Assembly: GCA_900315155.1 (NCBI GenBank)
Contig: OMYB01000002.1
Location: forward strand, 248,001 to 312,000
Direction of reading: 5' to 3'
DNA length: 64,000 nucleotides
Source of the DNA: an uncultured Selenomonadales bacterium
GTDB lineage: Bacteria > Bacillota > Negativicutes > Selenomonadales > Selenomonadaceae
Shown: piece by piece, positions 3,056-21,376 of the stretch
Layout: each line of letters begins with the position of its first letter
How positions within the stretch are numbered: the first letter of the stretch is position 1
The notes under the pieces: model-generated
The model's database searches: none
What the model was told of the DNA's origin: nothing
What the model saw: only the letters and a program-made list of their open reading frames with translations
Translations under genes and position numbers: made by a program

Positions 3056-3085
3056 ATTTTATCATATTCTACCGTTTTTCGTCAA
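3056..3085 (-). promoter_or_regulatory. Candidate promoter of the 3D-domain gene
   Basis: The minus strand has TTGACG (3085-3080) and TAAAAT (3061-3056) with an 18-base spacer, just past the GH84 stop codon. Confidence 0.55.
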
Positions 3086-4527: not shown

Positions 4528-4544
4528 GATCCTTCCCCCTAAAA

Positions 4545-4571
4545 GAAAAAAGCCTCCCCCACCGGGAAGGC
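4545..4571 (-). terminator. Terminator after tRNA-Arg(CCT)
   Basis: On the minus strand GCCTTCCC pairs with GGGGAGGC (4571-4564 with 4559-4552) over a four-base loop, followed by TTTTTT. It lies between the tRNA and the GH84 gene. Confidence 0.85.
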
Positions 4572-4584
4572 CTGATCGTCACTC

Positions 4585-4661
4585 TGGTGCGATTGGTGAG
4601 AGTCGAACTCACGACCCTTCGCTTAGGAGGCGAATGCTCTATCCAACTGAGCTACAACCGC
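4585..4661 (-). tRNA. tRNA-Arg (anticodon CCT)
   Basis: A complete 77-base tRNA including encoded CCA. The acceptor stem GCGGTTG pairs with CAATCGC (one G-T pair). The anticodon loop is CTCCTAA, giving CCT, which reads AGG. The T arm has GTTCGAC. Confidence 0.95.
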
Positions 4662-4816: not shown

Positions 4817-6049
4817 TTAAACTGCAGTTTCCCGCAGCCGTTTGAGTTTTTGAATGGCATTTTGCACGGTCTGCCGCTCTCGCACTGACAGCCGGTTTTT
4901 AAAACCACTATCAACCTGCGTTTTTAGCAATGCATCCATCTGCTCAAGCATGCGCGGCACAAATTTTTGCAGCATAGCATGTTCTGACGGTGCTAACGCT
5001 TTGTCCAGTTCTGCCAGCAGGGCTCCAGCCTCGCCGATGATTTCCCAGGCCCGCACATTGCATTGGTCGACCTCCGCTGTGGAGATGAGTTCTGCCTTGT
5101 CTGCGGCGTCCACTATCTCCAGTCCGGTCAGGAGCTCCTCCGCCAGAGCCTGTATGCTGATCGTATCCTGTGGCAGCGCGTCCTCCTGTGCACACGCATA
5201 CTGCACCAGCAGATTGCGGCGCACCGCCTGCTCATCCGTCTGGCTGGACAACGAGGCCACCGTATCCACGATATAGCTATCGGTATCTTGTAAAGCCTGC
5301 CCCTTACGTACCATATCGGCACAGGTGAGATAGCCGGCCGTTGCCTGCGGCTCCACGCCCTGCACCAGCCGTTGCCACAAATCCGGATGCGCCGCCAGTT
5401 CCGTGCCCAACCACAGGATGGTCACTCGGCGGTCCAAATCCAGTCCCAGTTTCTCCAGCGCCGAGAACAGCCGCGACAAACCCACGCTGTGACTCCGCCG
5501 CAGTCGGTAAAAATCGTTGACCACACAGACAAGCTGTTCCAGTTCCGACAGCTTGCCATAGCGAATGCCCCGATACTCCTGCTGGCCGATGTCCGCCACC
5601 CAGTCCAGTGCGTCTACACGCTGTTCCAGTTCCCGGTCACGCTGCTTCATATACTCAATCGTGGCCAAAACAGCCTGCTGTAAGCGAAGATTGACCTCAT
5701 CCTGTGCCAGTGCCTGCTTGTTCAGCTTGCGGTTCAGCACCGTTGCCAGTTCCAGGCTCAGGCTGTTTTGCTCGGCCAAGCGGTAGAGACTCTGCTGCAG
5801 CGTATAGATAGCCTTTTCGTGATTCTGGCAGAGCTCCGCCTGCAGGCGCTTGTTGGCGCCGGTCAGGCCGCGCCACAGTCGAGTGAAGAGGCCCTGTTCG
5901 GCCAGTTCCCGGCGCTGGTTCTTGCCCGCCTGCAGTACCGCTGTTCCCTCCAAGACAAACCTGTCCAGTGCTTTACGGTTACGCGCGAGCCTTCCTGCCA
6001 GACGCTCCGCAAAAACATCCATTTCCTGTCTCTCTGTCTGCTCAATCAT
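4817..6049 (-). CDS. Unknown helical protein, last gene of the Hsp70/HerA operon
   Basis: A 410-residue soluble, strongly helical protein that I do not recognise by name. Residues ~45-90 hold the segment GLFTRLWRGLTGANKRLQAE followed by a coiled coil (KAIYTLQQSLYRLAEQNSLS); a Trp/Gly-rich amphipathic start followed by coiled coil suggests membrane or partner contact. The C-terminal half is helical with no catalytic motif. The ATG at 6049 is chosen because GAGGTGAA precedes it and because it lies just past the stop of the upstream gene (6055); the longer open frame to 6220 would overlap that gene by 170 bases. Translational proximity places it in the operon. No terminator is obvious after it. 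Function unknown; structural or regulatory partner of the two ATPases is an inference. Confidence 0.75.
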   Translation of the reverse strand: MIEQTERQEMDVFAERLAGRLARNRKALDRFVLEGTAVLQAGKNQRRELAEQGLFTRLWRGLTGANKRLQAELCQNHEKAIYTLQQSLYRLAEQNSLSLELATVLNRKLNKQALAQDEVNLRLQQAVLATIEYMKQRDRELEQRVDALDWVADIGQQEYRGIRYGKLSELEQLVCVVNDFYRLRRSHSVGLSRLFSALEKLGLDLDRRVTILWLGTELAAHPDLWQRLVQGVEPQATAGYLTCADMVRKGQALQDTDSYIVDTVASLSSQTDEQAVRRNLLVQYACAQEDALPQDTISIQALAEELLTGLEIVDAADKAELISTAEVDQCNVRAWEIIGEAGALLAELDKALAPSEHAMLQKFVPRMLEQMDALLKTQVDSGFKNRLSVRERQTVQNAIQKLKRLRETAV

Positions 6050-6054
6050 CCGTT

Positions 6055-6912
6055 TCACCTCGGTTCTGCCACGGTATCGACCTGGCCCTCGATATTCTTC
6101 TGCAAGATAGCCCGCGCCTGCTCGGCCGTCAGCTGCTTGCCCTTGCTTGCCCTTGTTGGATTCGTCTTGACCTCCGCCGGGTTGACCGCAGATGCAGGCT
6201 TTTTCATCGCCGTTGCACACACCGTCTGCTGGGGCACAAATACCTTCGTAGCGGGGCGCTCGGGAACAGCCACTTTCTGCTCGGCCCTGGTTATTGTCTC
6301 CTGTGGCTTTTCTGCCTTAGCAGCAGGTTGCGCCTTAGGCTGCACAGACGGTTTAGGCGGTACAACAGGCACTGCCTTTTTCTCTTTCTTCAGAGTGCCA
6401 TACACTTTCAGCAGCAACGTACCGCTATTGGTGCTGATGGTCTCCGCCTTCACGGCCTTGATCTGTCTGCCCGCGCCAAAAGGCTGGCCTGCTGTGCTCA
6501 GAAACTCCTGAAAATCCTCATAGCTCCAAGGGACATCGGTATAAGCCTGCCGCTGATCCGCGCACGCTGACCAAAGTTCATCCAGATAGCCCGTCATTTC
6601 CGAAAACGTGGCACGCGTATGGCTGTCTGCGAGCAGGCAAATGCTCCTGCCCGCCAGCGAGGGCAGTTGCCACGGCCGCCCTTGTACCCTGCGCTCAGCC
6701 TGCATCATCAGCCCCATAGCATTTTTCCACTGGTCAAGGTACTCCTCCATATGTCCGGCACATTTAGTGGGATCCTGACTAGGCATACCGCCCAGCGGTT
6801 TCAGCTCGAAATACGGTGGTAACCCGTCGTCAGAGCCCTCACGGACGATATATGCCCAGACCTGATTATCCGCCATGGCAAATAAGTATCTGGTCACGTG
6901 CTGCTCGCTCAT
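6055..6912 (-). CDS. Unknown protein with Pro/Ala-rich linker, Hsp70/HerA operon
   Basis: A 285-residue protein with a compact N-terminal region of about 180 residues (contains QVWAYIVREG and SLAGRSICLLADSHTRATFS) and a Pro/Lys/Ala-rich, probably disordered linker at ~185-255 before a short C-terminal helix. No known catalytic motif is seen. The start codon overlaps the stop of the preceding gene in an ATGA arrangement at 6909-6912, which implies translational coupling. The linker suggests an adaptor that tethers one folded domain to a C-terminal binding helix; this is inference. Nothing in its base composition sets it apart from its neighbours. Confidence 0.72.
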   Translation of the reverse strand: MSEQHVTRYLFAMADNQVWAYIVREGSDDGLPPYFELKPLGGMPSQDPTKCAGHMEEYLDQWKNAMGLMMQAERRVQGRPWQLPSLAGRSICLLADSHTRATFSEMTGYLDELWSACADQRQAYTDVPWSYEDFQEFLSTAGQPFGAGRQIKAVKAETISTNSGTLLLKVYGTLKKEKKAVPVVPPKPSVQPKAQPAAKAEKPQETITRAEQKVAVPERPATKVFVPQQTVCATAMKKPASAVNPAEVKTNPTRASKGKQLTAEQARAILQKNIEGQVDTVAEPR

Positions 6913-7385
6913 TTTGCTTCACCCTCTTTCGCATATTTGCTCTGACGCATGGCTGCCCGCAGGTTGACATACGTGCCCGCTTCGTCCTGCCAGACTTTCG
7001 TCTGCACGTCGTGATACCGCTGCCGCTTTTCCTTGATGGCCGCCCGGTTTTTCTGACAATCCTCGTCCAGCAGCGCCTGCGTTTGGGCCAGCACCTGCAT
7101 GGCATTGGTCGCCGTACTATTCAAGGTCTGTGGTACCGCCTCCTTACGCAAAGGCAATGCCTGCAAATGCTGGTTAAGCGTAACATTTTGGGCGCGCAGT
7201 ACCATCTCTTTTTCCCGTGCCAGTCCATGGAGCACTTGCGTATTCTGCGTCTCCGTGGCCTGGCGTGCCTGGGCGCGGCCGCGCTGACCAGCGACCTCAT
7301 GGGATGGCGTACTGACAGACCTCTTAATCTGTGTGCCTTTGGCGGCAATGTTTTGTCCAATCGCATCCATCTCCGTGTAGCTCAT
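6909..7385 (-). CDS. Small helical protein of unknown function, Hsp70/HerA operon
   Basis: A 158-residue hydrophilic, Gln/Ala/Arg-rich protein predicted by eye to be almost wholly helical, with heptad-like spacing in residues ~55-150. No signal peptide, membrane segment or catalytic motif. A GGGAGGC ribosome site precedes the ATG at 7385, and its stop overlaps the start of the next gene by four bases, so the two products are probably made in a fixed ratio. It resembles a small assembly or secretion-chaperone-type protein in size and composition, but no family was recognised. Confidence 0.7.
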   Translation of the reverse strand: MSYTEMDAIGQNIAAKGTQIKRSVSTPSHEVAGQRGRAQARQATETQNTQVLHGLAREKEMVLRAQNVTLNQHLQALPLRKEAVPQTLNSTATNAMQVLAQTQALLDEDCQKNRAAIKEKRQRYHDVQTKVWQDEAGTYVNLRAAMRQSKYAKEGEAK

Positions 7386-7407
7386 GGCTGTGCCTCCCTA
7401 TCCCCGA

Positions 7408-8316
7408 CTAAATCTGACCGAAGCCGTCCTGTTCCTGTTTATCCTGCTTGATGGACTCCTGACGGATGGCTTCTTTTTGTTCGGGCTCCATCCCATAATC
7501 GTCGAAAATCATCGCCTCGGCACGTTCCAGCTTCTGGCGCTGCTCCAGCACATCCGCCTGATACAGTCTGGCCACCCCTGCATGCGTCTCATCCGTACTG
7601 GCCAGCCGCCAGTCACGCAGTAAATCGCGTAATTCCGTGGGAGTCTTCTCCGGGTACTGTTTTTGCAGGTTGACCAACAGCGCCTCCCGGATGCGCAGGG
7701 ACTCATTCTCCGGCAACATCCCCTGCAAATACTGCTTGATTTCCACGCGGTCATAGCCCAGCTGCTTGAAGGTATCAATGACGACCTCCTGCTGCTCGGG
7801 TTCCATGCGGCACAACGCCGCCTGCTCCGTAAAGGTATCCGTCAAATCGATGCCCTTCTTTTGCGAGATTTCATTCTTCATGGTTGAGACATAAACGCTC
7901 TGATAATTCACCTTCTCGGCCAGGGTCATCTGTGGTACATCAGGCAGTTGCTTTTTCAAATACTGGTAATACGAGTCGAAATCTGGGAAATCTTCCCGTT
8001 TTTTCCAGTCCTCATGTTTCTCGGCCTCTGCCAAACGATAGCCAGCTTCCTCTGGTTTCACATCTTCCTTAATAATCCCCAGCTTCTTCCCCAAGGCCGT
8101 TATCGCCTTGGAAACGAAATGCACCGTCAGCAAACCCACAATGGGGCCGACCACAATGCCTAAAGGGCCGGCGATGATGGCCGCTGCCGCTCCCGCCAGG
8201 ATGCCCGCACCTACTGCCACCACCTTGCTCAGGCCGCTACAGATAGCTTTGCCTACACTCTTAATTCCGCTGCAAATGGCAGAACCAATGCTGCCAAGAA
8301 AACTCAACAATCCCAT
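7408..8316 (-). CDS. Glycine-rich membrane-insertion protein, Hsp70/HerA operon
   Basis: A 302-residue protein whose first ~75 residues are hydrophobic and glycine/alanine-rich, with small-residue spacing (SIGSAICSGIKSVGKAICSG, then GAGILAGAAAAIIAGPLG) typical of glycine-zipper helices that insert into and oligomerise in membranes. The remaining ~225 residues are charged and helical. There is no classical signal peptide. This layout, an inserting N-terminus on a soluble body, is found in pore-forming effectors and in some secreted toxins, and is the reason to suspect an effector role here; no homologous toxin was recognised. Tight packing (22 and 15 bases to neighbours) and a GGGAGGGG ribosome site place it firmly in the operon. 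Confidence 0.72.
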   Translation of the reverse strand: MGLLSFLGSIGSAICSGIKSVGKAICSGLSKVVAVGAGILAGAAAAIIAGPLGIVVGPIVGLLTVHFVSKAITALGKKLGIIKEDVKPEEAGYRLAEAEKHEDWKKREDFPDFDSYYQYLKKQLPDVPQMTLAEKVNYQSVYVSTMKNEISQKKGIDLTDTFTEQAALCRMEPEQQEVVIDTFKQLGYDRVEIKQYLQGMLPENESLRIREALLVNLQKQYPEKTPTELRDLLRDWRLASTDETHAGVARLYQADVLEQRQKLERAEAMIFDDYGMEPEQKEAIRQESIKQDKQEQDGFGQI

Positions 8317-8331
8317 TGTTTGCCCCTCCCA

Positions 8332-11300
8332 TTACTTACGATTTAAAATTTCTTCCTGCAAATCCCGCTTCTCATTATCGTCCAATGTTGTTTCTCCCAG
8401 CCAATGCTTTAACATTTTCACCAAACTTGCTTCTTTGAGCTCACTTTCACTGGTATATGCCTGCCAATAAAGATACTGCACCAGCAGGGGAAACTCCTCC
8501 GGCGTCAATTTGGACATAGTATTGCGCAAGGCATTGCACAACTTCTTTTCCGCTGCCACCAGCTTGGCCGGATCCTTGCCGAATACCGTTTGCTGGTATA
8601 GGCTAGCCAAATCCCTGTCCAGCATCAGTTGCAGGTATTTATTGACTAACGCGGGGGTAATCTCAACCGTCTTCGCCACACGTTCCAAGCCCGGCAAAAC
8701 GCCCAAGCGATAGTTTTTGGGCTGGGCATAGTAAGCCAGCGCTGTACTGCGCACCTGTGCGTCAGCGGCCTCCGGCTGCTCACACGTATCGCGTGAGACC
8801 TTGACCTGCACGGCCTTTGGCCAGTCCTGCGTCAGCACGATGGCATGACCCGTGCGCAGGTTGGACAGGAACGCTTTTTGGTCATTCTCCAACGCCATCG
8901 TATTGCCGATGGCCTCCTTGTCATCCTGTGCGAACAGCTTGTGCACGATTTTTGTGTTCGTGTTCTTGAGCACCTCGGGCGTCATCTTGTCCGGTATCTG
9001 GTCGACGATAATCAGTGACTCGCCATACTTGCGCACCTCGGCCAGCATATTGGCAAAAACCTCCACGCCCTGGCGCTTGCTGGGATTATCGCCCGGCACG
9101 AAACGGCTGAACAAACGATGCGCTTCCTCCACGAGCGTGATGTGCTGGAATTTTTCGCCACGCTCCTTATACGCATAGTACTCTGCCCGCACCGCCTGCA
9201 GCAGATTCGTCATGATGAAGCCCATAATCAGGGACTTCTCCGCGCCGTTGCGGATTTCCTCCAATTCGATGACCACCTGACGATGAATCAGCGTGCGGAA
9301 ATCCACCGAGCGTGGCGTGTTCAGCATGAGTCCTTTCGCCCCGACCATCAAGCCATTGATACGTGCCCGTATCGAGCCCAGATACTCATCCTGCAGGCGC
9401 TCGCCAAAGTTCTGCTCGCGCGTCACCTGCTCCACAGCCACCTTGAAATCAGAGAGCGTAGGGAACGCATAGCTACCCGGGGCAAACGGTTTTCCTTTCT
9501 GGCCATTGACAAACCATTCGTTAGTGTTGACGTTCCAACCTTTGCTCTCATAGGCCCGATAGATACCCGCCTCCAAAATCTGCGGTATCGCAGCCTCCAT
9601 TTCAAAGGCCGCCTCCATCGTCGCCTTAATCATATCTGCTCTGGCCGATATTGGCTCCTTCGGAAATAATTCAAAGGGGTTCAGATAAAACGGTGCTACC
9701 TTCTGATTACCCGCCGTAAAATAAGTCAACTTTGGAAATCGTTGTTTACCGGCTTCATCCTGCTGCCCATATAAAGTGCGATATTCTGTCTTTGCTGGTT
9801 CAATAACGAGGAACGGCAGGCCACACTCACGCAGGATTTTCTGGCAGGTCGTGGTCTTGCCACTGCCAGTCACGCCCGCGATAAAAGTATGTTTATCCAA
9901 CGCACTTTTATTCAAGGCAATGGGTATCTGCGGGCGCACCGTGCCGCATTGTACTAGATGGCCCAGCTCCAGCCTGTCTCCTGACGCCATATCCTGCGGC
10001 GCGTTCAGGCCGAACTCCACCTCCTTGCGCAGGCCGAGGCCGATGACATCCTTCTGCGGCAAGCCTGTCAAAATGCCGAGTTCCTCCGCCGAAAGCCAGC
10101 TGCCACCAAACACCCGGGCGGCCGTCGCCTTTTGTGCCAATGTCGCCCGGCCGAGGTTATCTCCCTGCTCACTTCTGGCGCAGGGAATTTGTAAATTCTG
10201 CAGCGCCCGCAGACAATTACCCTGCTTGTCACTCGCCAGCTCCGTAAAGGACAGAGCGGCACGGTTGCCCTTTGGGCTGCTGTAGAGCGACATAACGGTA
10301 TTCGCCAGCCGATACATGACGGGACGGTCGTCGCTGAACAGGAAGCTGCAGGCCAAAAAGAGGCCTTTGCCCCTGCCCCTGTCCAGCCTTGGCAATAGCA
10401 CTTCATCCAAATACTTGCTCCAGAGCACCGCCGCCTTGTTATCACAGCGTAGCTGCTCCGTCAGATTGGCACTTTGGCTGCCGCTTTGCGTATGGTTGCG
10501 CGTATGATTATGCGCATAGCTGCTGCTATAGTTGTTGTCCTCGCTGCTGCCCGTCTGCGAGCCGCTGCTGCTGGAGTCACTGCTGCCATCGGTGCGGCTG
10601 TAGGCATCGCTGTAGTTATACTGCTCGCTGCTGCTCGTGGAGTAGCCCTCGCGGCCATCGTGCCCCGCGCTGGTCTGCTCGGCCGTACTGTTGGAGGAGC
10701 TCCCGCCCGAATTACTGCGGGACAAACTGTAGGAGTCATGCCGGCCGTAGTCCGCGCTCGTATTGCTACCCGTACCGGCTTGCACCTGATTATTGCGCGT
10801 ATGCCGCACATCATCGGCAATCTGGCTGTGGCTCTCGCTCTCATGCTGGGAGTGTGTCTTGTGGATACCACGCGCCGACTGCCTGCCATGGCTGAAGCCA
10901 TCGCTGCGGTTCCAGCCGTCAGTGCTGTTGTCGGTAAACTGGCGTGAGAGACTCGCAAGCGGCGCGAGCATATCAAACGTCTGCAGCAATTCCTGCTCCA
11001 GCGTGTCCATCTCGGCCTCGGTGTATGGCTGGGCCAACACGACAAATCCGAAACTGCTGCCGCCCATAATGTCAATCAGGCGATCAACGCCTTGGAAGTC
11101 GTCACCTGCCTGGTCGATATCCGCCCCAGGCACGCCCGTCATCAAGCCATAATACTTAGCATTGCGCAAGCGCTCCAGCACCGCCGCCTTTTCCGCACCC
11201 CGGTTCTCGGAGTCGAGCTCCGTCACCTGACTACCCCGGAAATTGCCCTCGATGCTGGGCTTAAGCAGCTTGCCTGCCAAATCCTGCTCATTGAGCACGG

Positions 11301-11631
11301 ACGGCAGGGCATCGGCGGTCAGGTCCCGCCCGACGCCGAAATAGAAATCCACATGCCCCTGTCCATCGCCGAGGATAATGTAGATGAAATTCATGGCATC
11401 GCGGCCACGGAATGTGCCCAAAATATTTTCAAGCGCTTCCCTTCGGGGTGCCTTTTCCTCGAACATGATCTCATCCACATGGCACAGGAAAAACTGATCC
11501 TGCTCCAAGCGCCGCCGTAACGGCAACCACTCCGTCTCCGGTTGCAACAGCGAGTGCTGACTGGCGTTGTTCAGATAGGCCAGCAACGCCTCGGCCGCCT
11601 CACGCTCCTGCTGTATAGCCTCTGCCTCCAT
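8332..11631 (-). CDS. HerA/FtsK-like P-loop ATPase with low-complexity insert
   Basis: A 1099-residue protein carrying a DUF87/HerA-FtsK-type motor domain. Walker A GVTGSGKTTT lies near residue 585 and Walker B ITLVEEAHRLF near residue 830; the block IIVDQIPDKMTPEVLKNTNT matches the sensor region of HerA-like ATPases. Residues 1-240 form a separate folded N-domain. Residues ~244-394 are extremely rich in Ser, Asn, Gly, His, Tyr and Asp, unlike any normal motor domain, and look disordered. The C-terminal ~130 residues are helical. HerA-like motors translocate DNA or protein and recur as the engine of multi-gene defence systems. Spacing to neighbours is 9 and 15 bases; AGGAGG precedes the ATG. 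Exact substrate unknown. Confidence 0.88.
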   Translation of the reverse strand: MEAEAIQQEREAAEALLAYLNNASQHSLLQPETEWLPLRRRLEQDQFFLCHVDEIMFEEKAPRREALENILGTFRGRDAMNFIYIILGDGQGHVDFYFGVGRDLTADALPSVLNEQDLAGKLLKPSIEGNFRGSQVTELDSENRGAEKAAVLERLRNAKYYGLMTGVPGADIDQAGDDFQGVDRLIDIMGGSSFGFVVLAQPYTEAEMDTLEQELLQTFDMLAPLASLSRQFTDNSTDGWNRSDGFSHGRQSARGIHKTHSQHESESHSQIADDVRHTRNNQVQAGTGSNTSADYGRHDSYSLSRSNSGGSSSNSTAEQTSAGHDGREGYSTSSSEQYNYSDAYSRTDGSSDSSSSGSQTGSSEDNNYSSSYAHNHTRNHTQSGSQSANLTEQLRCDNKAAVLWSKYLDEVLLPRLDRGRGKGLFLACSFLFSDDRPVMYRLANTVMSLYSSPKGNRAALSFTELASDKQGNCLRALQNLQIPCARSEQGDNLGRATLAQKATAARVFGGSWLSAEELGILTGLPQKDVIGLGLRKEVEFGLNAPQDMASGDRLELGHLVQCGTVRPQIPIALNKSALDKHTFIAGVTGSGKTTTCQKILRECGLPFLVIEPAKTEYRTLYGQQDEAGKQRFPKLTYFTAGNQKVAPFYLNPFELFPKEPISARADMIKATMEAAFEMEAAIPQILEAGIYRAYESKGWNVNTNEWFVNGQKGKPFAPGSYAFPTLSDFKVAVEQVTREQNFGERLQDEYLGSIRARINGLMVGAKGLMLNTPRSVDFRTLIHRQVVIELEEIRNGAEKSLIMGFIMTNLLQAVRAEYYAYKERGEKFQHITLVEEAHRLFSRFVPGDNPSKRQGVEVFANMLAEVRKYGESLIIVDQIPDKMTPEVLKNTNTKIVHKLFAQDDKEAIGNTMALENDQKAFLSNLRTGHAIVLTQDWPKAVQVKVSRDTCEQPEAADAQVRSTALAYYAQPKNYRLGVLPGLERVAKTVEITPALVNKYLQLMLDRDLASLYQQTVFGKDPAKLVAAEKKLCNALRNTMSKLTPEEFPLLVQYLYWQAYTSESELKEASLVKMLKHWLGETTLDDNEKRDLQEEILNRK

Positions 11632-11640
11632 AAGAGCCTC

Positions 11641-14600
11641 CTATCTAAGCGTCTGCTTATGTACCTTGCACTTGGTCTCGGAACTGGCGAAGTCCTCCGC
11701 CCGGCCAGCCGCGTACTCAATCACGTCCGGTGCCACCTTGCGGATATAGATGGCGGCCTCGTCTGACTCATCCACCTCGTTGGCATCCAGGCGGCAACGC
11801 ACCATCTTCACCGCACTGGCAGGCAATTTGCCCTCAGGTGCCTGCGCATCTGAGGTATAGTAAAGCTCGAAATCCTCCTCATCGGCGTAATCAAAACGCG
11901 CCCAGTCGCCATAGCCGACGCCGAGGCTGATGACGACGTGGAATTTGTTGTCCGTATCCAGATTGCCCAGATACCAGGCGAACGAGGCCTCACCGCTGGC
12001 GTCGACATCCTCATTCACGATGCGTACGTCTTTACCACCTTTACGGCTCCTGAGCAGGCCAAAGACCACGCCGGTCTTGCCCGTCCGAACCTTGTCCCAG
12101 GCCTGTATGGGCTGAGGCTGTGCTGGCGTTTCCTTCTGTTCTTTAGCCTCGGCCTTGGGCGCCGTGCCCGTCTCCATGCCGAGCGGCAAATGCAGCTTGA
12201 AGAGGTTGTCGGCATTCGCCTCTGTGCCATACTGCTCCAAGAGCGTTTTAGCGCCCTCCTGCTCGATCTGATTGATGGCCTCATCAAAGAGTTCCTTCAC
12301 CACAGGGCTCTTGCAGGAGTTACCTGCCAATAGGATGTGGATGGGCAATTGCTCAAGTCGCTCCTTCGCCGTAAACACGCGATTCATTTTCTGGAAGAAA
12401 TTCTGCACGCCATAGCGGATGCGTTCCTTGATGATTTTTTCCAGATTAGCGACATTGACCGTCAGCTTCACGGGCACGAGTTCCTGCTTGCCGTCATTCA
12501 GGCTGTACAGGTTGATATCCGTACTGCCCTGCTCGAACAGCTTCGCATAGCCTTCATGCCGCTCCCAGACGGGGCGCAACAGTTGGGCCAGCAGCTTGCG
12601 GTTCATATAGGCCTGCTGCGAGGCCTTGCCCGGCTCATAGACGAGCCGCTCGGCGCCCGCAAAGCTGTCCGCGAACAGGCCCGAGTCAGTCGGCAACACG
12701 AAGGGAATAGACTTCTCGCGCATCTCCTTGATATTGGCTTTATAGACATCGTAGGCCAGCAAGTTCAGCAGATTTTCGCCGCCCAAGTGGACATCGCCAC
12801 CCTTGCCAAATTGATGCACGACAAAGTTGCGCCGCTTATCAATGGGCTTTTCCTCTGTGCCAAAATCAAAATCCGTAGTGCCGCCACCGAAGTCAAATAC
12901 GGCATAGGACACTTTTTGCCCCGGCTCTTTCGGTTCCAGCTGCAGTTCCTTCAACGCGCAGATAGCATACGCCGCCGGTTCGCTGGCCCCCGCATAGACA
13001 CGAAACAACCGCATGGCCTCCGCATCGTTCAGAATAGCTGGCGGCAACGATTTGCGCAGACCTCGGTCGAAACTGGCCAGCAAATGCTCGCGCACATCCT
13101 TGCTGTAATTCACGGGGAAAGAGAGGATATAGTCGAGATACACGCCGTTGGTCATGTTGTTGATGTAGAGACCCAGATAATACGCATATACCTCAATGGG
13201 GTCAAAATCATCCTTGCCCAGTTCCAGATAAGGCCTGAGCTCCAGTGTATGCCCCTGCCGGTCACGCAGTAGCAGGTGGCGCTGCTTGTCATTGGCCCAC
13301 TGTTTCAACTCGCCGAAGACGGAATAATAGACCGAGCTGTCCACGCCCTTGTCATAAAGCACGTTGCTGGCCTGATGCGACACCGTCAGCTGCTCCCACT
13401 CGGTAAAGGGCCGCCCGCTGCGCGCGGCATAGGCCTCGCGGAACGCGTCGATATCGCGCAGCTCAATCACAGTAGGATTTTCATAATCGGCCAAAGTTGG
13501 GGCTGCAGTATAATTTCCCTTGCCCACACGCAGTAAACGTTCATCAGCGTTTTTACGACGGGCGACAACCGTACTCTTTGTACCGAAATCAATGCCAACG
13601 GTACCACCGCGGACAATATCCATCTGTGGTGGCTTGGCAAAGACTGGTTGCTCCACCTTGACTGTCTCCGCTTGCTCAGTAGGCACCCTGCTCTGCTTGG
13701 CCTGTGTAGTCTTGGCTGCTTGTGTCCCTTTGTTTGTCCATTGCAGTTGTTGCTCAAACAACTCCCAATCGCCCTTGTTCGGATCGCTGAGCTGGTCCTC
13801 GGTATAAGGTGCCATATTGGCGCGGCGTTGGTCGATGGTCAGGAGTTCTTTAAACAATTTCACCGTGGTAATCTTTTGCGACTTGCCTGATAAAATGGTC
13901 TCTAAGTCCCTTTGGTAGTCGAACGTTCTACCGCCGAGACATGGCTTGTACTTACCTGTCAAATAATCATTAATCGCTGCCTCGTGTTCAAAGACACACT
14001 TACTTTCTTGCCAACCAAGGTATGGCAACAAATCCTTTAAATCATTATTTCCTTGATAATATTTAGCCATGAAACCTGTAAAGAGCTTCTTTTGCGACTC
14101 ATCAAGTCCAACAGGTACCAACTCATAAGATAACAGATAATTCATTGTCTCTGGATAGGAAAGTGGCTGCGCATCTTTATCTTTAAACCGATGAATTGCC
14201 ATAAGTGGAGACCGACTGCTACAACTCATCCCATCACAGCCGGTAGTGCAACAACTACTACCATCGCCCTTGAAGGCCAAACGAGGTTTTGTGGAACTGC
14301 AATGCTTGTTTATGTCCGCAGTATCATACCAGTAGTAAGTATATTTATCCCGACCACATTTAAAGATATCCCCCTCCATATACGGGTTGCCATTTCCTGC
14401 CTTAAATGTAGTCAGCCCTTCTGTTTTGGTCACCGGTTCATAAATATATCCCGACTCCTCATCATATGCCTTCACCTCACTACCTCTGTTACAGGCAAAC
14501 GACCTCAATTCCGTCAAATCCCACTGGGGATAGATACCAGCTACGTCACGATCCAGCCAGACCGACTTATTCTCTATCTTCAAAAAACGTTTATTACATA

Positions 14601-14730
14601 GCCCGCTCAATTGCGTCAAAAAATAGTAAAAATCATCAGCTACAGCCTGCAGTTCTGACACCAGCGCGTCATCAATTTTCTGTTTTTCTATCTCTGTCAC
14701 CATCAAGCGTCTATCTGTCGGTATGCTCAT
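11641..14730 (-). CDS. Hsp70/actin-fold ATPase with cysteine-rich N-terminal domain
   Basis: A 1029-residue protein. An actin/Hsp70 nucleotide-binding domain begins near residue 377: phosphate-1 motif GIDFGTKSTVVA, phosphate-2 motif FDFGGGTTDFDFG near 612, and adenosine motif ILLAGNSCKSP near 797. It is therefore an ATPase of the Hsp70 superfamily but lacks a recognisable DnaK peptide-binding domain. The first ~370 residues are a different domain with a cysteine cluster (SSCCTTGCDGMSC) that could bind metal. The last ~180 residues include a beta-rich segment. The ATG at 14730 has GGAGG at ideal spacing; an upstream start would overlap the hairpin region. It is smaller in similarity to SrfB-type Hsp70-like proteins than needed to name it so. 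Likely an ATP-driven assembly or sensor component paired with the adjacent HerA-like motor. Confidence 0.87.
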   Translation of the reverse strand: MSIPTDRRLMVTEIEKQKIDDALVSELQAVADDFYYFLTQLSGLCNKRFLKIENKSVWLDRDVAGIYPQWDLTELRSFACNRGSEVKAYDEESGYIYEPVTKTEGLTTFKAGNGNPYMEGDIFKCGRDKYTYYWYDTADINKHCSSTKPRLAFKGDGSSCCTTGCDGMSCSSRSPLMAIHRFKDKDAQPLSYPETMNYLLSYELVPVGLDESQKKLFTGFMAKYYQGNNDLKDLLPYLGWQESKCVFEHEAAINDYLTGKYKPCLGGRTFDYQRDLETILSGKSQKITTVKLFKELLTIDQRRANMAPYTEDQLSDPNKGDWELFEQQLQWTNKGTQAAKTTQAKQSRVPTEQAETVKVEQPVFAKPPQMDIVRGGTVGIDFGTKSTVVARRKNADERLLRVGKGNYTAAPTLADYENPTVIELRDIDAFREAYAARSGRPFTEWEQLTVSHQASNVLYDKGVDSSVYYSVFGELKQWANDKQRHLLLRDRQGHTLELRPYLELGKDDFDPIEVYAYYLGLYINNMTNGVYLDYILSFPVNYSKDVREHLLASFDRGLRKSLPPAILNDAEAMRLFRVYAGASEPAAYAICALKELQLEPKEPGQKVSYAVFDFGGGTTDFDFGTEEKPIDKRRNFVVHQFGKGGDVHLGGENLLNLLAYDVYKANIKEMREKSIPFVLPTDSGLFADSFAGAERLVYEPGKASQQAYMNRKLLAQLLRPVWERHEGYAKLFEQGSTDINLYSLNDGKQELVPVKLTVNVANLEKIIKERIRYGVQNFFQKMNRVFTAKERLEQLPIHILLAGNSCKSPVVKELFDEAINQIEQEGAKTLLEQYGTEANADNLFKLHLPLGMETGTAPKAEAKEQKETPAQPQPIQAWDKVRTGKTGVVFGLLRSRKGGKDVRIVNEDVDASGEASFAWYLGNLDTDNKFHVVISLGVGYGDWARFDYADEEDFELYYTSDAQAPEGKLPASAVKMVRCRLDANEVDESDEAAIYIRKVAPDVIEYAAGRAEDFASSETKCKVHKQTLR

Positions 14731-14768
14731 TCCTATCCCTCCAGTTCTAGGCTTAGACTTCAACGGTT

Positions 14769-14812
14769 GTCATACTGCGGGCCAGCAAACGTCTGCTGGC
14801 CCGCAGTATGAC
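14769..14812. repeat. Perfect 19-bp inverted repeat between operon genes
   Basis: The 19 bases at 14769-14787 are exactly reverse-complementary to 14794-14812, with a 6-base loop. It sits in the only sizeable gap (91 bases) inside the block, just upstream of the Hsp70-like gene, and has no U-tract in the minus direction. Candidate for an mRNA processing or stability element or attenuator. Confidence 0.9.
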
Positions 14813-14821
14813 ATTTACGAC

Positions 14822-15829
14822 TCACGCCACGTGCACGATGCTTTTCCTGACCATGCTCACATGATGGTAGCTGTCCATTTTTTCCTTGTAGAGGTTCCGA
14901 TAGCCGAGCAGGAGCACCTGCGTCACCTGCCCCTGTGCCCGGCTGCTGGCGTCCGGCGTATGGCAGTCCATATCGTACGGCTGCCCCGCCGCATCCTCAG
15001 CCAGGGCATAGACGGGCTCGGTCTTGCTCGCGTTCACGAGCTGCAGCGCATAGCGGAACAACTTCTGCAAATAGGTCAGGTCGTCACTCGCGCCATCCTG
15101 CAGGCATTGGCTCATCTCATCCCAGAGCCGGCCCAACGCCTCATCCTGAGCTGCGCCGCAGATAAAGGACATAAACCCCGTCTGCGGGTAGACGCTGGCC
15201 AAACGATGCTGGCTGGCTGGGCGCAATTCACCCCAACGCCGGTAAAGTTCCCAGCCCGTGGCAAAGCGCTGTCCAAGCTGCTCCTCCAGTGCATCGTTCT
15301 CCTGTTGCAATTTATCCATATCGGCATTGAAACGCTGGCGTAATTGTGTCTCGCGCTGCGCGGCCTCCTGACTGGCCTGCTCCGCACGCGCTTGCGCCTG
15401 CCGCAAGTCTCTGCGCGCCGCGTCCGTCTCCCGCTGCGCCGCCTGCACCTGCTGCTGGCACGTCTGGTGCTCACTCGCCAGCGCCTGCTGTGCCTGTGCC
15501 AGTTCACTGCGGCAAGCCGTCAGCTGCGCCTCCACCTGTTTCAACCGCGCCTGCGTCTCATACTGCCCCGTCCGCGCAGCCTCCAGTTCTTGTTTGGCCT
15601 GCGCAAGCTGCGCCTGATATTGGCTGGCCAGGGCGTTTGGCCGCTCTGCAGCATCCTCCTGTGGCCTGCCCACACGTAGCTCTGTCTCCGCACTGCTGTA
15701 CCGCCTCGCCGCTGGCTGTACCTGCAGCACCCGCCGCAGCTTATGCTGCACATGCGGGTCGTCCAGCATCGCCAATAGCCACTCCCGGCTGCCCAGACCT
15801 TTCTTGTCCCTGCGCTCAAATAAATCCAT
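14822..15829 (-). CDS. Coiled-coil protein, Hsp70/HerA operon
   Basis: A 335-residue protein with a long Gln/Ala/Glu-rich coiled coil at residues ~65-190 followed by a globular C-terminal domain of about 140 residues (QRFATGWELYRRWGELRPAS to the end). A long coiled coil encoded immediately before an Hsp70-like ATPase recalls the GrpE nucleotide-exchange arrangement, but no GrpE signature was found, so this is only an analogy. The ATG at 15829 is preferred over the adjacent GTG because AGGAGG is seven bases upstream. No catalytic residues are evident. Confidence 0.75.
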   Translation of the reverse strand: MDLFERRDKKGLGSREWLLAMLDDPHVQHKLRRVLQVQPAARRYSSAETELRVGRPQEDAAERPNALASQYQAQLAQAKQELEAARTGQYETQARLKQVEAQLTACRSELAQAQQALASEHQTCQQQVQAAQRETDAARRDLRQAQARAEQASQEAAQRETQLRQRFNADMDKLQQENDALEEQLGQRFATGWELYRRWGELRPASQHRLASVYPQTGFMSFICGAAQDEALGRLWDEMSQCLQDGASDDLTYLQKLFRYALQLVNASKTEPVYALAEDAAGQPYDMDCHTPDASSRAQGQVTQVLLLGYRNLYKEKMDSYHHVSMVRKSIVHVA

Positions 15830-15840
15830 CACGCCACCTC

Positions 15841-17553
15841 CTATTGCAGTTCCTCTTTTATCCGCTGGAAATTGCGCTCTATTTCCTCCGTCTGTTGTCT
15901 ATGCTGCTGTTGGTAGCCGATCTCCTCCCGCCCGAGGCGTTCCGCCAGATGGATATTGCGCCTGCCCAGGTGGTCCTGTTTGGCCAACTGCCTGTACACC
16001 TTCGTAATCTGGAAATCCTGCAGGCCATATTCTGCTTTCAAGATGCGTTTCTGCTCAGCAGTAAAGCCCTGCTTCCTGTCCTTGGCAGCAAAGGTAGAGA
16101 ACGCTGACATATCGGTCAATGCGCCCTGCATGGCCGCCTGCCATTCCTGCTCATCCCATAGAGCGATGACATCCCGCTCCTCCAACACCTCCCGCACGCG
16201 CTCGCGCACGAAGCGGTTGGCCCATTGCTGCGGGTTGCCACTGCTATACATATCCTGCAGTGCCTCAGCTGACAAATCCGCCTCGATTTCGCCGAACAAC
16301 TCTTCCGTTTCGTTCTCAGTCAGGAAATTATCCCGCAAAGCTTCGTCTAAAGCTTGATCCAAAATGGCCAGCATGGCAGCAGCATCGTCCTGAATGGTTT
16401 TGTCCAGCACTGCGCCCGCCACCTTGGCACTGGCCACCGTACCGGCTATCGAGCCGGTTAGGGCCACCAGCCCCGTGATAATCGTCCCCGCGCCGGGCAA
16501 AAAGACATTCAGGGCAACGGTACCGGCTAGCCAGCCCGCCGTACCGCCCGCCACGGTAGAGGCCGTGAACAACACATTTTTCAACAGCTGGCCTTTGGAG
16601 ATGCGCCCGTTGAACAGGCGCACCACATCCCCGGCAGACAGCAGCGCGACCGTCACCACGCTGGTCAGGACATTCTGCCGTAGCAGCTGCGCGGCATTGC
16701 GGAAGGCGGCTCCCTCTTGCATGAGATTCGTGCCCGTTGTGAGACCTTTCCCCGCCTGTGCCGTCGCTTCGCGTCCGATTTGGCGCGTCACCATATCGGC
16801 ACCCTTGACCAGCAGTTCATTTTTGCCGAAACGCGCCATCTGGCTGCTGATGACCGTCGTGGCCATGGTCAGGCCGCCGACGCGTACGCTGACCAGCGCT
16901 GCCTTTTTGAGGGCGGTGGTTTTGCTGTCACCATTCCAGATAGCCAGGGCAAACGTCAGAACCGCCGAGATTCCCATCGCGCTGCGGGCAATGACCATGC
17001 CGTTTTTCGCATCGAACACGAGCGACTCAATCGTACCCGGCCGCGCTGCGGCCACAGCCTGTTCATAGGTATAGGTACCGCGCCGGATAATCTGCTGTGC
17101 GGCCGCCGGATTGCGCACGCCCTTGACGTCGCCGGCCGCGATACGTTTCTCCAGCGCCCGGACGGCACTCTCGTACATATCCTGCGGCACCTCAATCTGC
17201 ATGGGCTTGCCGTCGCTGGCATAGTAACGGAAACCGTGCTCATCGAAACAGGCATCGACGCAGGCCTGACCACTGCGGCAGTATTTGGTCTGTATCAGCT
17301 GCCCATTCACGACCCGGTCTGCACCGTTCTTCGCGTTGTCGCTGCCGACAATTTTGGCATCGCGCCCCGCGAGGTAATCCTCCTGCGTCTCCATTTGCTC
17401 CGCCGCAAAGCCGTGCCCCTGCCGCCCGTGGAACTTCTCGACCTGATAGGATGCCTCCCCAGCCGCCTGTTTCGAGAACTGCCACCCCGCGTCCTCGCCC
17501 AGACGATCTGAATGACGCTGCGTTTTATCCTGCGTATCGAACGTATTGCTCAT
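15841..17553 (-). CDS. Membrane protein with nuclease-like N-terminal motif
   Basis: A 570-residue protein with three visible parts. Residues ~60-130 contain GADRVVNGQLIQTKYC, whose G-x-D ... Q-x-K pattern resembles the core of PD-(D/E)XK nuclease-fold domains, followed by a conserved-looking ACFDEHGFRYY segment. Residues ~190-390 are hydrophobic and Gly/Ala-rich, with several likely membrane-spanning or inserting helices (for example GTAGWLAGTVALNVFLPGAG). The C-terminal ~180 residues are acidic and helical. This arrangement suits a membrane-associated effector; the nuclease reading is inferred from one motif only. Start at 17553 follows TGGAG; an overlapping TTG at 17598 is less likely. Confidence 0.72.
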   Translation of the reverse strand: MSNTFDTQDKTQRHSDRLGEDAGWQFSKQAAGEASYQVEKFHGRQGHGFAAEQMETQEDYLAGRDAKIVGSDNAKNGADRVVNGQLIQTKYCRSGQACVDACFDEHGFRYYASDGKPMQIEVPQDMYESAVRALEKRIAAGDVKGVRNPAAAQQIIRRGTYTYEQAVAAARPGTIESLVFDAKNGMVIARSAMGISAVLTFALAIWNGDSKTTALKKAALVSVRVGGLTMATTVISSQMARFGKNELLVKGADMVTRQIGREATAQAGKGLTTGTNLMQEGAAFRNAAQLLRQNVLTSVVTVALLSAGDVVRLFNGRISKGQLLKNVLFTASTVAGGTAGWLAGTVALNVFLPGAGTIITGLVALTGSIAGTVASAKVAGAVLDKTIQDDAAAMLAILDQALDEALRDNFLTENETEELFGEIEADLSAEALQDMYSSGNPQQWANRFVRERVREVLEERDVIALWDEQEWQAAMQGALTDMSAFSTFAAKDRKQGFTAEQKRILKAEYGLQDFQITKVYRQLAKQDHLGRRNIHLAERLGREEIGYQQQHRQQTEEIERNFQRIKEELQ

Positions 17554-17590
17554 GTCAGTTACTCCACAACTCCTGCACCAGCTCGCATCA

Positions 17591-18811
17591 TCAGACAATA
17601 TCCTTAGCCTGCTCTACGAACAGCTTCAGCGCGATAGCATCCACACTGAAGTAAGTATAGTTATGGCCATCGCCATCCTCGTCCTCATCATCCTCATCCG
17701 TAGTATCCGCTGTGGAGAAAGAATCATTTGCCGTATGGATAGCAAATATTCTGTCGTATGCATCATCTTCGTCCGGTGTGTAATCCACTTCGGTAATATC
17801 GTTATACTTGAATACGTAATTCCCCTGATTGGTTGCCAGGCACAAACTGTCTTTCGTCAACGCCCAACCATATCGGAAATCATTGCTGACTTTCAGATGC
17901 ACAATCTCATCCATCGTATACAGATTTTGGCAAACTTTGCGCAAGGCCGTTTTCTTCTGATGCTGGTTCATTGCACATGCCTCTTGCCAGATGCCATCCG
18001 TCATCTCCCAAGCATTATCCTGATGGCTAGTTCCCTCTTGCTCAGACTTGTATTTCATGAGTAATTTATGGGCAGCCACCAGCCCCCGTGGTTTTGTGGC
18101 TGGATTATCCACAAAAACCTCTTTATAGAGTTCGCGCAGTTCCTCCATGACATTCTCATCGCTGCCAGATGACGCACTTGCCACTACCTGCGTGGGTTCC
18201 ACCGGCTGCGGCGCTGCGTTGCCCCACGGCAGGATCACCTGCGCAAAGGTGATGTTTTTCGCGGCGCACTCCTCCGGTTTCTGCGCATCGATTTTCACGG
18301 TGGGCTCGCCCAGTTCCTCCACGAGCGCGCCCACATAGTGCGTATCGCTCACGCGCAGTGAAATCTCAAACTCCCGGCCGCCCAGCAGATAAATTGTCGG
18401 CAGTTGCATATCCCAAAGGTCGTACAGATCGTCCTGCGTGATGGCCGTCTGCAGCGCATGGCCGATGACCTGATTGTCGTCCGTGAGGTCGCGCAGAATG
18501 TTCTTCTTGACCTCCAGCCGCTGCTTCTGCTCGGGGTCCAGCGTGGTCTCGTCAAAATCTGCGCTCTGGTCTGCCGTGTAGACTACGCCCAGCGCCGCGC
18601 ACAGCTGCTGGCGCATATCCGGCGCATCGGCAGGGATGGCCTTCACCGCCTCGATTTTGTCGTAGTAGCGGGCGTCCAGCCACTCCACGAGCTGACCGTT
18701 CTGAAAATACTGCACCACTGCACCGAGGTCGAAATTCTGCCGCAACTCATTGATGTTGTTGACCTTGACGCCGTTGCCCATTTCCAGCGGGAATCTATTC
18801 TTTCTTGCCAT
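17591..18811 (-). CDS. Unknown protein, first structural gene after the WYL regulator
   Basis: A 406-residue soluble protein of unknown function. Residues 1-60 form a distinctive N-terminal module (RFPLEMGNGVKVNNINELRQ, then LGAVVQYFQNGQLVEWLDAR). I believe similar N-termini occur in other Firmicute proteins but cannot name the family. A Lys/Gln-rich middle is followed by a C-terminal region (YGWALTKDSLCLATNQGNYV) that reads like a small beta-barrel of the bacterial PH-like kind, with an acidic loop DEDDEDEDGDG. A perfect AGGAGGT ribosome site precedes the ATG, 36 bases after the regulator stop, so it is almost certainly co-transcribed with the WYL gene. Confidence 0.75.
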   Translation of the reverse strand: MARKNRFPLEMGNGVKVNNINELRQNFDLGAVVQYFQNGQLVEWLDARYYDKIEAVKAIPADAPDMRQQLCAALGVVYTADQSADFDETTLDPEQKQRLEVKKNILRDLTDDNQVIGHALQTAITQDDLYDLWDMQLPTIYLLGGREFEISLRVSDTHYVGALVEELGEPTVKIDAQKPEECAAKNITFAQVILPWGNAAPQPVEPTQVVASASSGSDENVMEELRELYKEVFVDNPATKPRGLVAAHKLLMKYKSEQEGTSHQDNAWEMTDGIWQEACAMNQHQKKTALRKVCQNLYTMDEIVHLKVSNDFRYGWALTKDSLCLATNQGNYVFKYNDITEVDYTPDEDDAYDRIFAIHTANDSFSTADTTDEDDEDEDGDGHNYTYFSVDAIALKLFVEQAKDIV

Positions 18812-18847
18812 GATGGTTACCTCCTGTAAAATTTACTGTTACTACAC

Positions 18848-19864
18848 TCATATTACCTTGCCCGTCTGGGCCATTTTACGTATTTCTTCCTGCCAAGCCT
18901 GACGCAGTGCCGCCGGTGCCAGCACCTCGATTTTACTACCCTGACTAAGCAGCCACATCAGAATGCCTTTACCAAAAACGTCGGCCTCAACTATAAAACC
19001 ATCTCCACTACGGCTGGCTTTGGCTGTGGGCAGTCTGTCCAGCAACGCCTCCAACGACGGCCCACGATATTGGAACCGAATGCTCTGCGCGTGGCCACCA
19101 TACATGTACTGAATCCGGTTTTTGTACGGCCCTGGCTGGAAGCGGTCTTTATACGGTATGGACTTCTGCTCGTCCAGCACCGCCAGCGCATGAATCCTGT
19201 CGAAACGGTAAATGCGTGGGTCTTGCTCCGGCTGTGCCCCTTGCTCGGGCACCACCTCGCCCAACAGGTAGAAGTAAAACTCGGAAAACAGAATGCCTAC
19301 GGGCACCAACCGCCGATGAAAGGGCTCGGCCTCCTTGAGGCTCGTATAGGTAATGTCTATCACGCGGCATTGCTGCACGGCCTGCGCCACCTGCCAGAGC
19401 CACGCCACAGGGAACGGTGGATGCGCCAGCGTGACGTAGTGGAACACCTCGTTGCGGATGTACTGCTGAATGACCGCCGCATCATCCACGCTGGCCACAA
19501 TGTGCAGCAGGCGCTGCAACAGTGACTCCATATGCGCCTTGGGGAACGCCCGGCTCGCCAGCAAAATCTTGCAAAGTGCCAGCATCTCGCCTTCGGTCAG
19601 ATGCGTCTGCTGCGCCGTGACCAGTTTGTAGGCCTTATCGGCGTGATCGTAGACGATGCTGCTCTGCACGCCCTGTTGCTGATTTTGCTCAGCGAGAAAA
19701 TTGCGCACCGCGTCGATGTCACGCTGGATGGAGCGCAAATCCACACCGTATCGTTCAGCGGCCTGTTGCTTGTTGACCGCCCGTCCCGAGAGGAACTCCT
19801 GATAAAGCTCCAGCACGCGGCTACTTTTAGCCAATTTGCCACCCGCGCCAGTGCCTTTGCGCAT
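18848..19864 (-). CDS. WYL-domain transcriptional regulator
   Basis: A 338-residue DNA-binding protein. Residues ~18-65 are a helix-turn-helix of the DeoR/HTH_11 kind (KQQAAERYGVDLRSIQRDI), and residues ~135-310 match a WYL domain with its C-terminal extension (conserved IDITYTSLKEAEPFHRRLVPVG region). WYL proteins of this layout repress or activate operons in response to nucleic-acid or nucleotide ligands and control many defence loci. The ATG at 19864 has GGAGGTGA upstream; a perfect 9-bp inverted repeat lies 25 bases before it. It heads the 15-kb minus-strand operon, which suggests autoregulation of the whole set. Confidence 0.9.
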   Translation of the reverse strand: MRKGTGAGGKLAKSSRVLELYQEFLSGRAVNKQQAAERYGVDLRSIQRDIDAVRNFLAEQNQQQGVQSSIVYDHADKAYKLVTAQQTHLTEGEMLALCKILLASRAFPKAHMESLLQRLLHIVASVDDAAVIQQYIRNEVFHYVTLAHPPFPVAWLWQVAQAVQQCRVIDITYTSLKEAEPFHRRLVPVGILFSEFYFYLLGEVVPEQGAQPEQDPRIYRFDRIHALAVLDEQKSIPYKDRFQPGPYKNRIQYMYGGHAQSIRFQYRGPSLEALLDRLPTAKASRSGDGFIVEADVFGKGILMWLLSQGSKIEVLAPAALRQAWQEEIRKMAQTGKVI

Positions 19865-19888
19865 GCTGCTCACCTCCGACATAATTGC

Positions 19889-19911
19889 ATACACATAAGG
19901 TATATGTGTAT
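19889..19911. promoter_or_regulatory. Operator-like inverted repeat upstream of the WYL gene
   Basis: ATACACATA (19889-19897) and TATGTGTAT (19903-19911) are exact reverse complements separated by five bases. Centre-to-centre geometry fits a dimeric regulator binding one face of the helix. It lies between the likely promoter region and the WYL start codon. Confidence 0.82.
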
Positions 19912-20644: not shown

Positions 20645-20674
20645 ATAAAAAAATCAGGCCATAACAGCCTGATT
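20645..20674 (-). terminator. Terminator of the toxin-antitoxin operon
   Basis: Minus-strand AATCAGGC pairs with GCCTGATT over a 7-base loop, followed by at least six T. The stem touches the stop codon of the toxin gene. Confidence 0.92.
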
Positions 20675-21338: not shown

Positions 21339-21376
21339 AATCAGCACCTCCTGCACATCACTAAATCCTTTCATCT

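Follow-up and report, generated by a model that had tools for sequence, protein, structure and literature searches.

An Operon Combining a Predicted Hsp70-Family Protein with a HerA/VirB4-Like Motor in a Variable Island of an Uncultured Selenomonadales Bacterium

Described Systems Close to the Locus

The third extension of the type III-A CoCoNuT systems joins a small helical partner to an ATPase that has a beta insertion and parts resembling EccE3 and VirB4, and CnuD, the Hsp70-like CoCoNuT protein, is described with degenerate Walker A-like motifs (PMC11090510). HSP70 is combined with GTPases in the DO-GTPase/HSP70 conflict operons (PMC7159879), and mobile versions of the type VII secretion system (T7SS) join WXG proteins with a three-domain FtsK/HerA ATPase (PMC3482391). 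Here we analyse an operon of ten open reading frames (ORFs), P0001 to P0010, from an uncultured Selenomonadales bacterium, situated in a stretch of 64,000 nucleotides (nt) of contig OMYB01000002.1 that is hereafter called the window. Its core, built around a predicted Hsp70 (P0006) and a HerA/VirB4-like motor ATPase (P0005), recurs in several bacterial phyla and may serve the deployment of effectors at the cell membrane.

The motor family of the window and the adjoining P0004 are found at one relative locus, L146, in a setting similar to that of CoCoNuT type III-A, as far as a comparison with the paper by description only can tell, and this pair is probably already in print as the type III-A add-on. 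However, none of the ten operon proteins matched McrB, DUF2357 (CnuC) or VWA in Pfam up to E 1 (a DUF2357 search of the whole genome came back empty, as did its controls), and the window differs in its separate Hsp70 with intact phosphate motifs, in P0007 and P0002 and in its WYL regulator gene. Dynamin-like GTPases are carried by some relatives of the operon, which recalls the DO-GTPase/HSP70 operons, whereas the window operon gave no GTPase or tubulin match in Pfam (no search for GAP1 was made) and has the HerA/VirB4-like motor. On a Helicobacter plasmid (L030), the same Hsp70/coiled-coil pair is followed by WXG100 (below cut-off), WHH/Colicin-DNase, SMI1_KNR4 and FtsK, a combination reminiscent of the mobile T7SS, but no WXG100 match was obtained in Pfam for the window operon, whose motor is different. 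A preliminary description of the locus, made from the nucleotide sequence, held that the set is unlike any named defence system; this stands insofar as PADLOC-DB 2.0.0 contains no full-system match for the operon, and probably no longer applies to the motor and P0004. No description of a stand-alone Hsp70-motor set was found in the part of the literature that was accessible, which is a weak negative with most subscription journals outside the search.

Operon Layout and the Conserved Core

The operon extends over positions 4817-19894 of the window, entirely on the minus strand, and its ORFs are separated by short gaps or share small overlaps. From the 5' end the order is the WYL regulator P0010, P0009, P0008, P0007, P0006, P0005, P0004, P0003, P0002 and P0001. 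According to the ORF coordinates, the spacings are 36 nt between P0010 and P0009, 8 nt between P0008 and P0007, 58 nt between P0007 and P0006 (91 with an internal ATG), 9 nt between P0006 and P0005, 15 nt between P0005 and P0004, and 22 nt between P0004 and P0003; P0009 and P0008 overlap by 8 nt if a TTG start is used, and P0003 and P0002 by 4 nt. The distance between P0002 and P0001 is 5 nt when counted from the internal ATG of P0001, while the listed GTG start of P0001 overlaps P0002 by 166 nt. The nine tightly packed genes behind a WYL regulator reported in the preliminary description were confirmed, with all ten ORFs in place and with their spacings.

These nine genes are a composite of one core and a P0008/P0001 module and form no single unit. 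The core consists of P0007, P0006, P0005 and P0004, to which P0003 and P0002 belong less firmly. Relatives of P0006 were found in 34 of 200 genomes, its own counted, and the motor was present at 22 of the 79 Hsp70 loci analysed (L009-L086 and the window), two contigs being met twice among the 22 (L012/L068 and L019/L035). Without the duplicates, L031 (a short contig) and the window, 18 motor loci remain; the coiled coil, the Hsp70 and the motor occur in 18/18 and P0004 in 17/18, L037 ending at the motor. As these loci were selected for holding both ATPases, the counts are a description and no test of enrichment. Two main gene orders were encountered, coiled coil-Hsp70-motor-P0004 and motor-P0004-coiled coil-Hsp70, with L058 unlike both, and at L057 the motor is split over several short ORFs. 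The hosts are Negativicutes, a Clostridium metagenome-assembled genome, Heliorestis, Bacteroidaceae, Campylobacteraceae, Acinetobacter (plasmid), Ignatzschineria, Chromatium, Azonexus, Allopseudospirillum and Pseudomonas, so that the core spans Negativicutes, other Bacillota, Bacteroidota, Campylobacterota and Proteobacteria. Negativicutes make up the majority of the nearest named matches, and a P0006 fragment of an uncultured Veillonellaceae bacterium (L031) is 96% identical across residues 434-1040; the window thus probably comes from this class.

The P0005 profile detected motors in 44/350 Negativicutes genomes at E <= 1e-50. Group 1, with scores of at least 1224 bits, comprises 16 places including the window; an Hsp70 is present at the locus in 14 of them, once as a fragment at a contig end, and is lacking at L146 and L148. 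Group 2 contains 11 loci with best segments of 788-991 bits (places in G002 and G355 are left out of its counts), all 11 with P0004, none with Hsp70 and nine with a dynamin-like GTPase. Group 3 contains 20 loci with 373-499 bits, six of them with WYL relatives (L163, L168, L171, L174, L175 and L176).

Dynamin-like GTPases were counted at 4/16 close loci, 9/11 loci of group 2, 5/20 of group 3 and 2/11 other core loci; all these numbers are minima, the P-loop filter having dropped even a Pfam-confirmed dynamin of L175. Together with the hydrophobic Gly-rich proteins and with some loci that by eye stand alone among housekeeping genes, they would suit an envelope or membrane stress system that uses the Hsp70 and the motor for inserting or remodelling membrane proteins and has no role in conflict. 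The patchy presence (44 of 350 genomes), the insertion in an island and the toxin-immunity neighbours of a sister branch described below argue otherwise, and we regard such a system as improbable. L023, one of the Hsp70 loci, has two dynamin-like genes, and several Hsp70s and coiled coils lie at L023 and L024 in a large cluster, along with dynamin-like GTPases and a radical SAM protein. At L152 (7345-9492), a Cys/Gly-rich protein of 260 amino acids (aa) and then a radical SAM protein are encoded downstream of the motor, P0004 and dynamin, which may be a modified-peptide pathway.

The Hsp70-Like Protein and Its Coiled-Coil Neighbour

P0006 (11641-14763) is a protein of 1040 aa, in which family alignments and the structure model delineate an N-terminal region of about 380 aa, an Hsp70 nucleotide-binding domain and a beta substrate domain. 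Pfam gave no Hsp70 match up to E 1, and the NCBIfam matches to HscA/DnaK (3e-4 to 9e-4) are far under cut-off. The structure model (predicted local distance difference test, pLDDT, 79; predicted template modelling score, pTM, 0.73) matches Hsp70s with Z of about 20-22 over residues ~385-1040, a stretch that extends into the beta substrate domain; this Hsp70 part, residues 385-1040, corresponds to positions 11644-13611. The phosphate motifs DFGT and FDFGGGT are invariant across the family alignments. The predicted structure shows an Hsp70 fold and the alignments show intact ATPase phosphate motifs, in agreement with the Hsp70-superfamily ATPase first proposed. No helical lid was seen in the model, its alignment to DnaK reaching approximately residue 503, where the chain ends. 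The N-terminal ~380 residues are barely covered by the structure comparison; the corresponding region of the Acinetobacter relative matches Lcl_C (1.8e-6, below cut-off).

P0007 (14822-15832), a coiled coil whose C-terminal domain is conserved, adjoins the Hsp70 in motor-type as well as VgrG-type loci, and it was found by profile in 11 of the 16 close motor loci. The matches listed for it, 60 of 665, are coiled-coil matches; coiled-coil matches to DndD came from the Pfam, NCBIfam and PADLOC scans.

A phage origin of P0006 was considered and rejected, with no match for it or for the Acinetobacter version in 50,697 phage records; in IMG/VR one scan gave no relative and a second gave one match of 49 query residues. 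Plasmid carriage was considered and set aside as well, both queries having retrieved the same two of 72,556 records. In genomes of the Selenomonas/Centipeda type (L014-L018, L033, L034 and L055), an Hsp70 of this family stands by itself, neither a motor nor a coiled coil being tagged nearby.

The Motor ATPase and P0004

P0005 (8332-11631), of 1099 aa, carries Walker A at residue 586 and a Ser-rich insert at residues 241-395 (10447-10911), recognised by its composition (26% Ser) and mostly of low model confidence. It matches DUF87 in Pfam at 7.6e-6, above cut-off, and in PADLOC mad8 (3.4e-22) and HerA models, and it scores 40 of 800 and 23 of 850 bits against the curated HerA equivalog families NF042943 and NF042944, below membership of either. 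The label HerA/FtsK-like given at the outset is upheld by DUF87 and by likeness to HerA in sequence; by its model it is no plain HerA, since the alignment with VirB4 extends past the ATPase domain.

A second look with VIA-align at the Foldseek candidates for the P0005 model placed the DndH C-domain (Z 22.6) level with the VirB4 ATPase (Z 22.1), and SIR2-HerA and DUF4297-HerA at Z of about 11-16. The model aligned with the VirB4 protein TrwK of R388 (7o42) over 37-933 with Z 18.0 and 528 aligned residues, and the root-mean-square deviation (rmsd) of 14.8 indicates that the domain arrangement differs; the N-terminal part of VirB4 (8rtd_h) gave Z 16.7, rmsd 3.9 and 270 aligned residues. A HAS barrel was not seen among the matches listed, and those VIA-align rows barely cover the N-terminal half of P0005. 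One moderate model therefore suggests, at the level of fold, a link with VirB4 through the N-terminal and ATPase domains, from which P0005 differs in its Ser-rich insert. The serine-rich family NF033849 has the same layout of an ATPase and a Ser-rich part, and P0005 matches it at 6.1e-25 but with 87 of 650 bits, far under cut-off; by layout only, this family can be equated with motor group 3. The anti-phage complexes of DndH, SIR2-HerA and DUF4297-HerA resemble P0005 in the ATPase domain in both sequence and fold, whereas no SIR2, DUF4297, NurA or Dnd partner was matched in the operon, apart from the coiled-coil matches of P0007 to DndD.

P0004 (7408-8316; 302 aa), with a hydrophobic N-terminal part rich in Gly, Ala and Ser, adjoins the motor in 16/16 close loci, the window counted, which makes it the core partner of P0005. 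Only P0004 and P0008 among eleven proteins (P0001-P0010 and P0012) passed a simple hydrophobicity threshold; P0005 showed no hydrophobic segment by the same threshold, and the P0004 profile gave no convincing relative in PDB.

The VirB4 alignment and the position of the island beside a tRNA gene would also be expected of a remnant of a conjugative element, namely a VirB4-type gene and its neighbours left from a degraded transfer system. This origin appears very improbable: the core content recurs across phyla, an Hsp70 accompanies 14 of the 16 close motors, and VirB10 (PF03743) and VirD4 (PF02534) are absent from the genome of the window (a draft, 99.83% complete), in which the controls were positive. 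A complete type IV channel is therefore not encoded there.

Effector Deployment and Intracellular Immunity

We hold tentatively, with somewhat less than even confidence, that the operon encodes a chaperone-fed, membrane-linked motor deploying effectors into or across the membrane. We infer an inducible system, in which the WYL protein P0010 would control the operon upon a signal. P0007 and P0006 would bind client proteins and hand them over, P0005 would assemble at the inner membrane face on or with P0004, and ATP hydrolysis by P0005 would drive the effector into or across the membrane. Candidate effectors in the window genome are P0004 itself, with its Gly-rich, pore-like N-terminus, and the P0008/P0001 pair, presumably captured. 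If this is true, several bacterial weapon systems share an Hsp70-family chaperone as their front end, and VirB4-type motors need no other part of a type IV apparatus to deploy effectors; a function would then be assigned to widespread unnamed genes, and it would become testable what the VirB4-like ATPase does in CoCoNuT loci.

The genes beside relatives of the operon, rather than the window's own, lean towards effector delivery or deployment. Downstream genes on the same strand as the motors of group 3 gave 47 proteins (none collected for L160, L169 and L173); 33 of them, from 16 loci, were scanned, leaving aside twelve third genes, of which three are P0009-like, and two L167 genes, one of them dynamin-like. 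Toxin families were Colicin-DNase and WHH (four members each), Endonuclea_NS_2 and LHH (three each), GH-E (two) and Gln_amidase (one), which makes 13 proteins provided that the Colicin-DNase and WHH members are the same four, the scan giving only counts per family. Immunity families were SMI1_KNR4 (six), SUKH_6 (five), SUKH_5 (four) and SUFU (two), and Big_2, Apolipoprotein and DUF6985 had one member each. The pairing of toxin with immunity genes is read from gene positions, as the family scan gives counts and no pairs. At L175 the row consists of a WYL gene, an Hsp70 (1.6e-35)-dynamin fusion, a dynamin, small genes, the motor and WHH/Colicin-DNase; the fusion (2753-4618), between the WYL gene and the second dynamin, unites an Hsp70 domain and a dynamin-type GTPase in one protein.

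The Hsp70/coiled-coil pair also occurs in other settings. VgrG-like proteins (Phage_base_V, above cut-off) are encoded downstream of it at L021, L022 and L026, AHH lies near it at L028 (above cut-off) and at L021 and L026 (just below), Imm11 at L021 and L026, and DUF4280, which we take to be PAAR-like, at L021 and L036. Beyond their VgrG-like and DUF4280 proteins, these loci are not called contractile here, their 724-aa protein having given no sheath match. It is conceivable, though doubtful, that a lidless Hsp70 with its coiled-coil partner is a general loading module in at least three unrelated delivery devices, with a VirB4-like motor and Gly-rich membrane protein, a VgrG/DUF4280 spike, or WXG100/FtsK; the VirB4 form would then be a minimal secretion or membrane-attack machine without the rest of type IV.

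Several results weigh against effector deployment. The toxin-linked motors belong to a distant branch, at 373-499 bits as against at least 1224 for group 1, and P0004 was found by profile in 0/20 of their loci, so the toxin link would have to be transferred from that branch to the window; Pfam and NCBIfam matched no toxin or immunity family in P0001-P0010, and the missing VirB10 and VirD4 count here as well. The P0005 model is moderate (pLDDT 67, pTM 0.44). Its sequence profile retrieved 23 sequences of solved structures up to E 1, among which the significant ones are HerA-type and VirB4 is absent; the matches listed by Foldseek are DndH, HerA and TrwB-type, with no VirB4, and the best NCBIfam match, at 89.5 of 600 bits, is CedD, named a DNA-translocating ATPase. 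As for the neighbours, a motor of the window's family and two P0004-like genes stand at L146 with DUF2357, above cut-off, and with a coiled-coil AAA_5 protein that falls just short of it, three type I restriction-modification (RM) genes, recognised by eye, follow at L073, and kinase/VWA/PP2C genes, presumably of the TerY-P kind, adjoin L062.

The HerA and DndH matches, CedD and these neighbours favour the main rival, an intracellular anti-phage or anti-plasmid system in which the motor acts on invader DNA by capturing or moving it, the Hsp70 and the coiled coil sense or assemble, and the membrane protein or another effector kills or arrests the cell. The first rank of HerA/DndH in both the sequence profile and Foldseek, the tie of DndH with VirB4, the PADLOC models matched by P0005 and the WYL regulator fit it, as does a HEPN protein (below cut-off) adjoining L029. 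A PADLOC scan of 106 of the 137 neighbour proteins collected, taken as counts for the best 25 of 130 families, gave mad2 three times, mad3 twice, and type I RM models, Hhe, PDC-S37, RTasNERD-Hel and mad5 once each; the literature search yielded no publication describing the PADLOC 'mad' models. On the other side stand the alignment of the N-terminal half of P0005 with VirB4 in VIA-align, the phage records without a match, the toxin-immunity neighbours of the sister branch, and the nuclease effector that had been suggested earlier: none of the ten proteins showed a recognisable nuclease domain, the only matches of that kind being P-loop, coiled-coil and WYL-region cross-matches (to models such as UvrB, Rad50, MutS2, DndD or Cas3c), which also speaks against plain restriction. 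The conserved linkage in defence islands, raised earlier as a check, held for the core, which recurs across phyla, but not for the context, which is patchy, with many core loci among housekeeping genes by eye. We consider intracellular immunity rather unlikely; even so, the stand-alone Hsp70-motor core would in that case be a candidate defence system without a full match in PADLOC-DB 2.0.0. The more general claim, an operon of conflict type that encodes two ATPases together with membrane proteins, is supported, as are the variable island and the conservation of the core in several phyla, and effector deployment remains our preferred reading.

The P0008/P0001 Module and Other Operon Genes

P0008 (15841-17598), a protein of 585 aa with four hydrophobic stretches, has relatives in 13/200 genomes, the window's own counted, and its profile gave no convincing PDB relative. 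A relative of P0001 (4817-6220, probable start 6049) directly adjoins the P0008 relative at L106, L107 and L108, and the four larger stretches with P0008, L106-L109, hold no P0006 relative. Because of this pairing away from P0006, P0008 and P0001 are a separate two-gene module, which flanks the core in the window. At L109 (3232-4947) a phosphopantetheine carrier domain is fused to the P0008 relative, and the Bacteroidaceae locus L058 also holds an acyl carrier protein (ACP)-like protein.

The regulator P0010 (18848-19894), the first gene of the operon, contains WYL (PF13280, 1.7e-9; 38 bits against a Pfam cut-off of 21.8) and WCX (PF25583, 8.3e-8) domains, as anticipated. Its relatives lie upstream of Hsp70 or motor genes at L021, L029, L040, L144 (two fragments), L163, L168, L171, L175 and L176, and near such genes at L022 (opposite strand) and L174 (downstream). 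P0009 (17591-18811) gave no convincing family in the Pfam, NCBIfam and PADLOC scans, and its relatives (in L023, L028, L162, L164 and L166) accompany the Hsp70 at some loci and toxin-linked motors at others.

Genes like P0003 and P0002 sit at similar positions in relatives, with weak sequence similarity. The small P0003 (6909-7385), for which the same three scans gave no convincing family, is represented at L009, L020, L040 and L141 by a gene of similar size after P0004, a correspondence of position with no sequence match shown. P0002 (6055-6912) is fast-evolving and conserved in position, as judged from alignment A5 and from profile matches at L140-L145, where L140 and L143 contain sequences of the alignment itself; no convincing PDB relative was found with its profile.

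The Island and Its Surroundings

Downstream of the operon lies a tRNA-Arg (CCT) gene (4585-4661, minus strand), which forms the border of the island. In the same-genus genome G001 a P0011 relative is followed by the same tRNA-Arg and then by a P0013 relative of 93% identity, and the interval from the tRNA-Arg to the P0013 relative contains no ORF that reaches 80 aa. The region of about 4.7-21.5 kb of the window (~17 kb) is therefore a variable island at a tRNA-Arg site. The border genes P0011 and P0013 are, we presume, NagJ-like and cstA-like, respectively. Another genome of the genus, G002, does carry a fragment of P0006, with 96% identity, on one of its short contigs. No integrase was recognised on the island, in a scan that covered proteins other than P0013-P0015.

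Upstream of the WYL gene and still inside the island, P0012 (19980-20585, minus strand) is LRAT-like (PF04970, E 0.016, below cut-off), and the relative locus L020 also holds an LRAT protein (2.8e-20). Two short ORFs at 20674-21374, within the island and upstream of the operon, look by eye like a RelE/RelB-type toxin-antitoxin pair. At the far end of the window, positions 62001-64000 have a GC content of 0.43, as against 0.51-0.60 elsewhere in the window, with a GC skew of up to 0.20, and are possibly another foreign segment.

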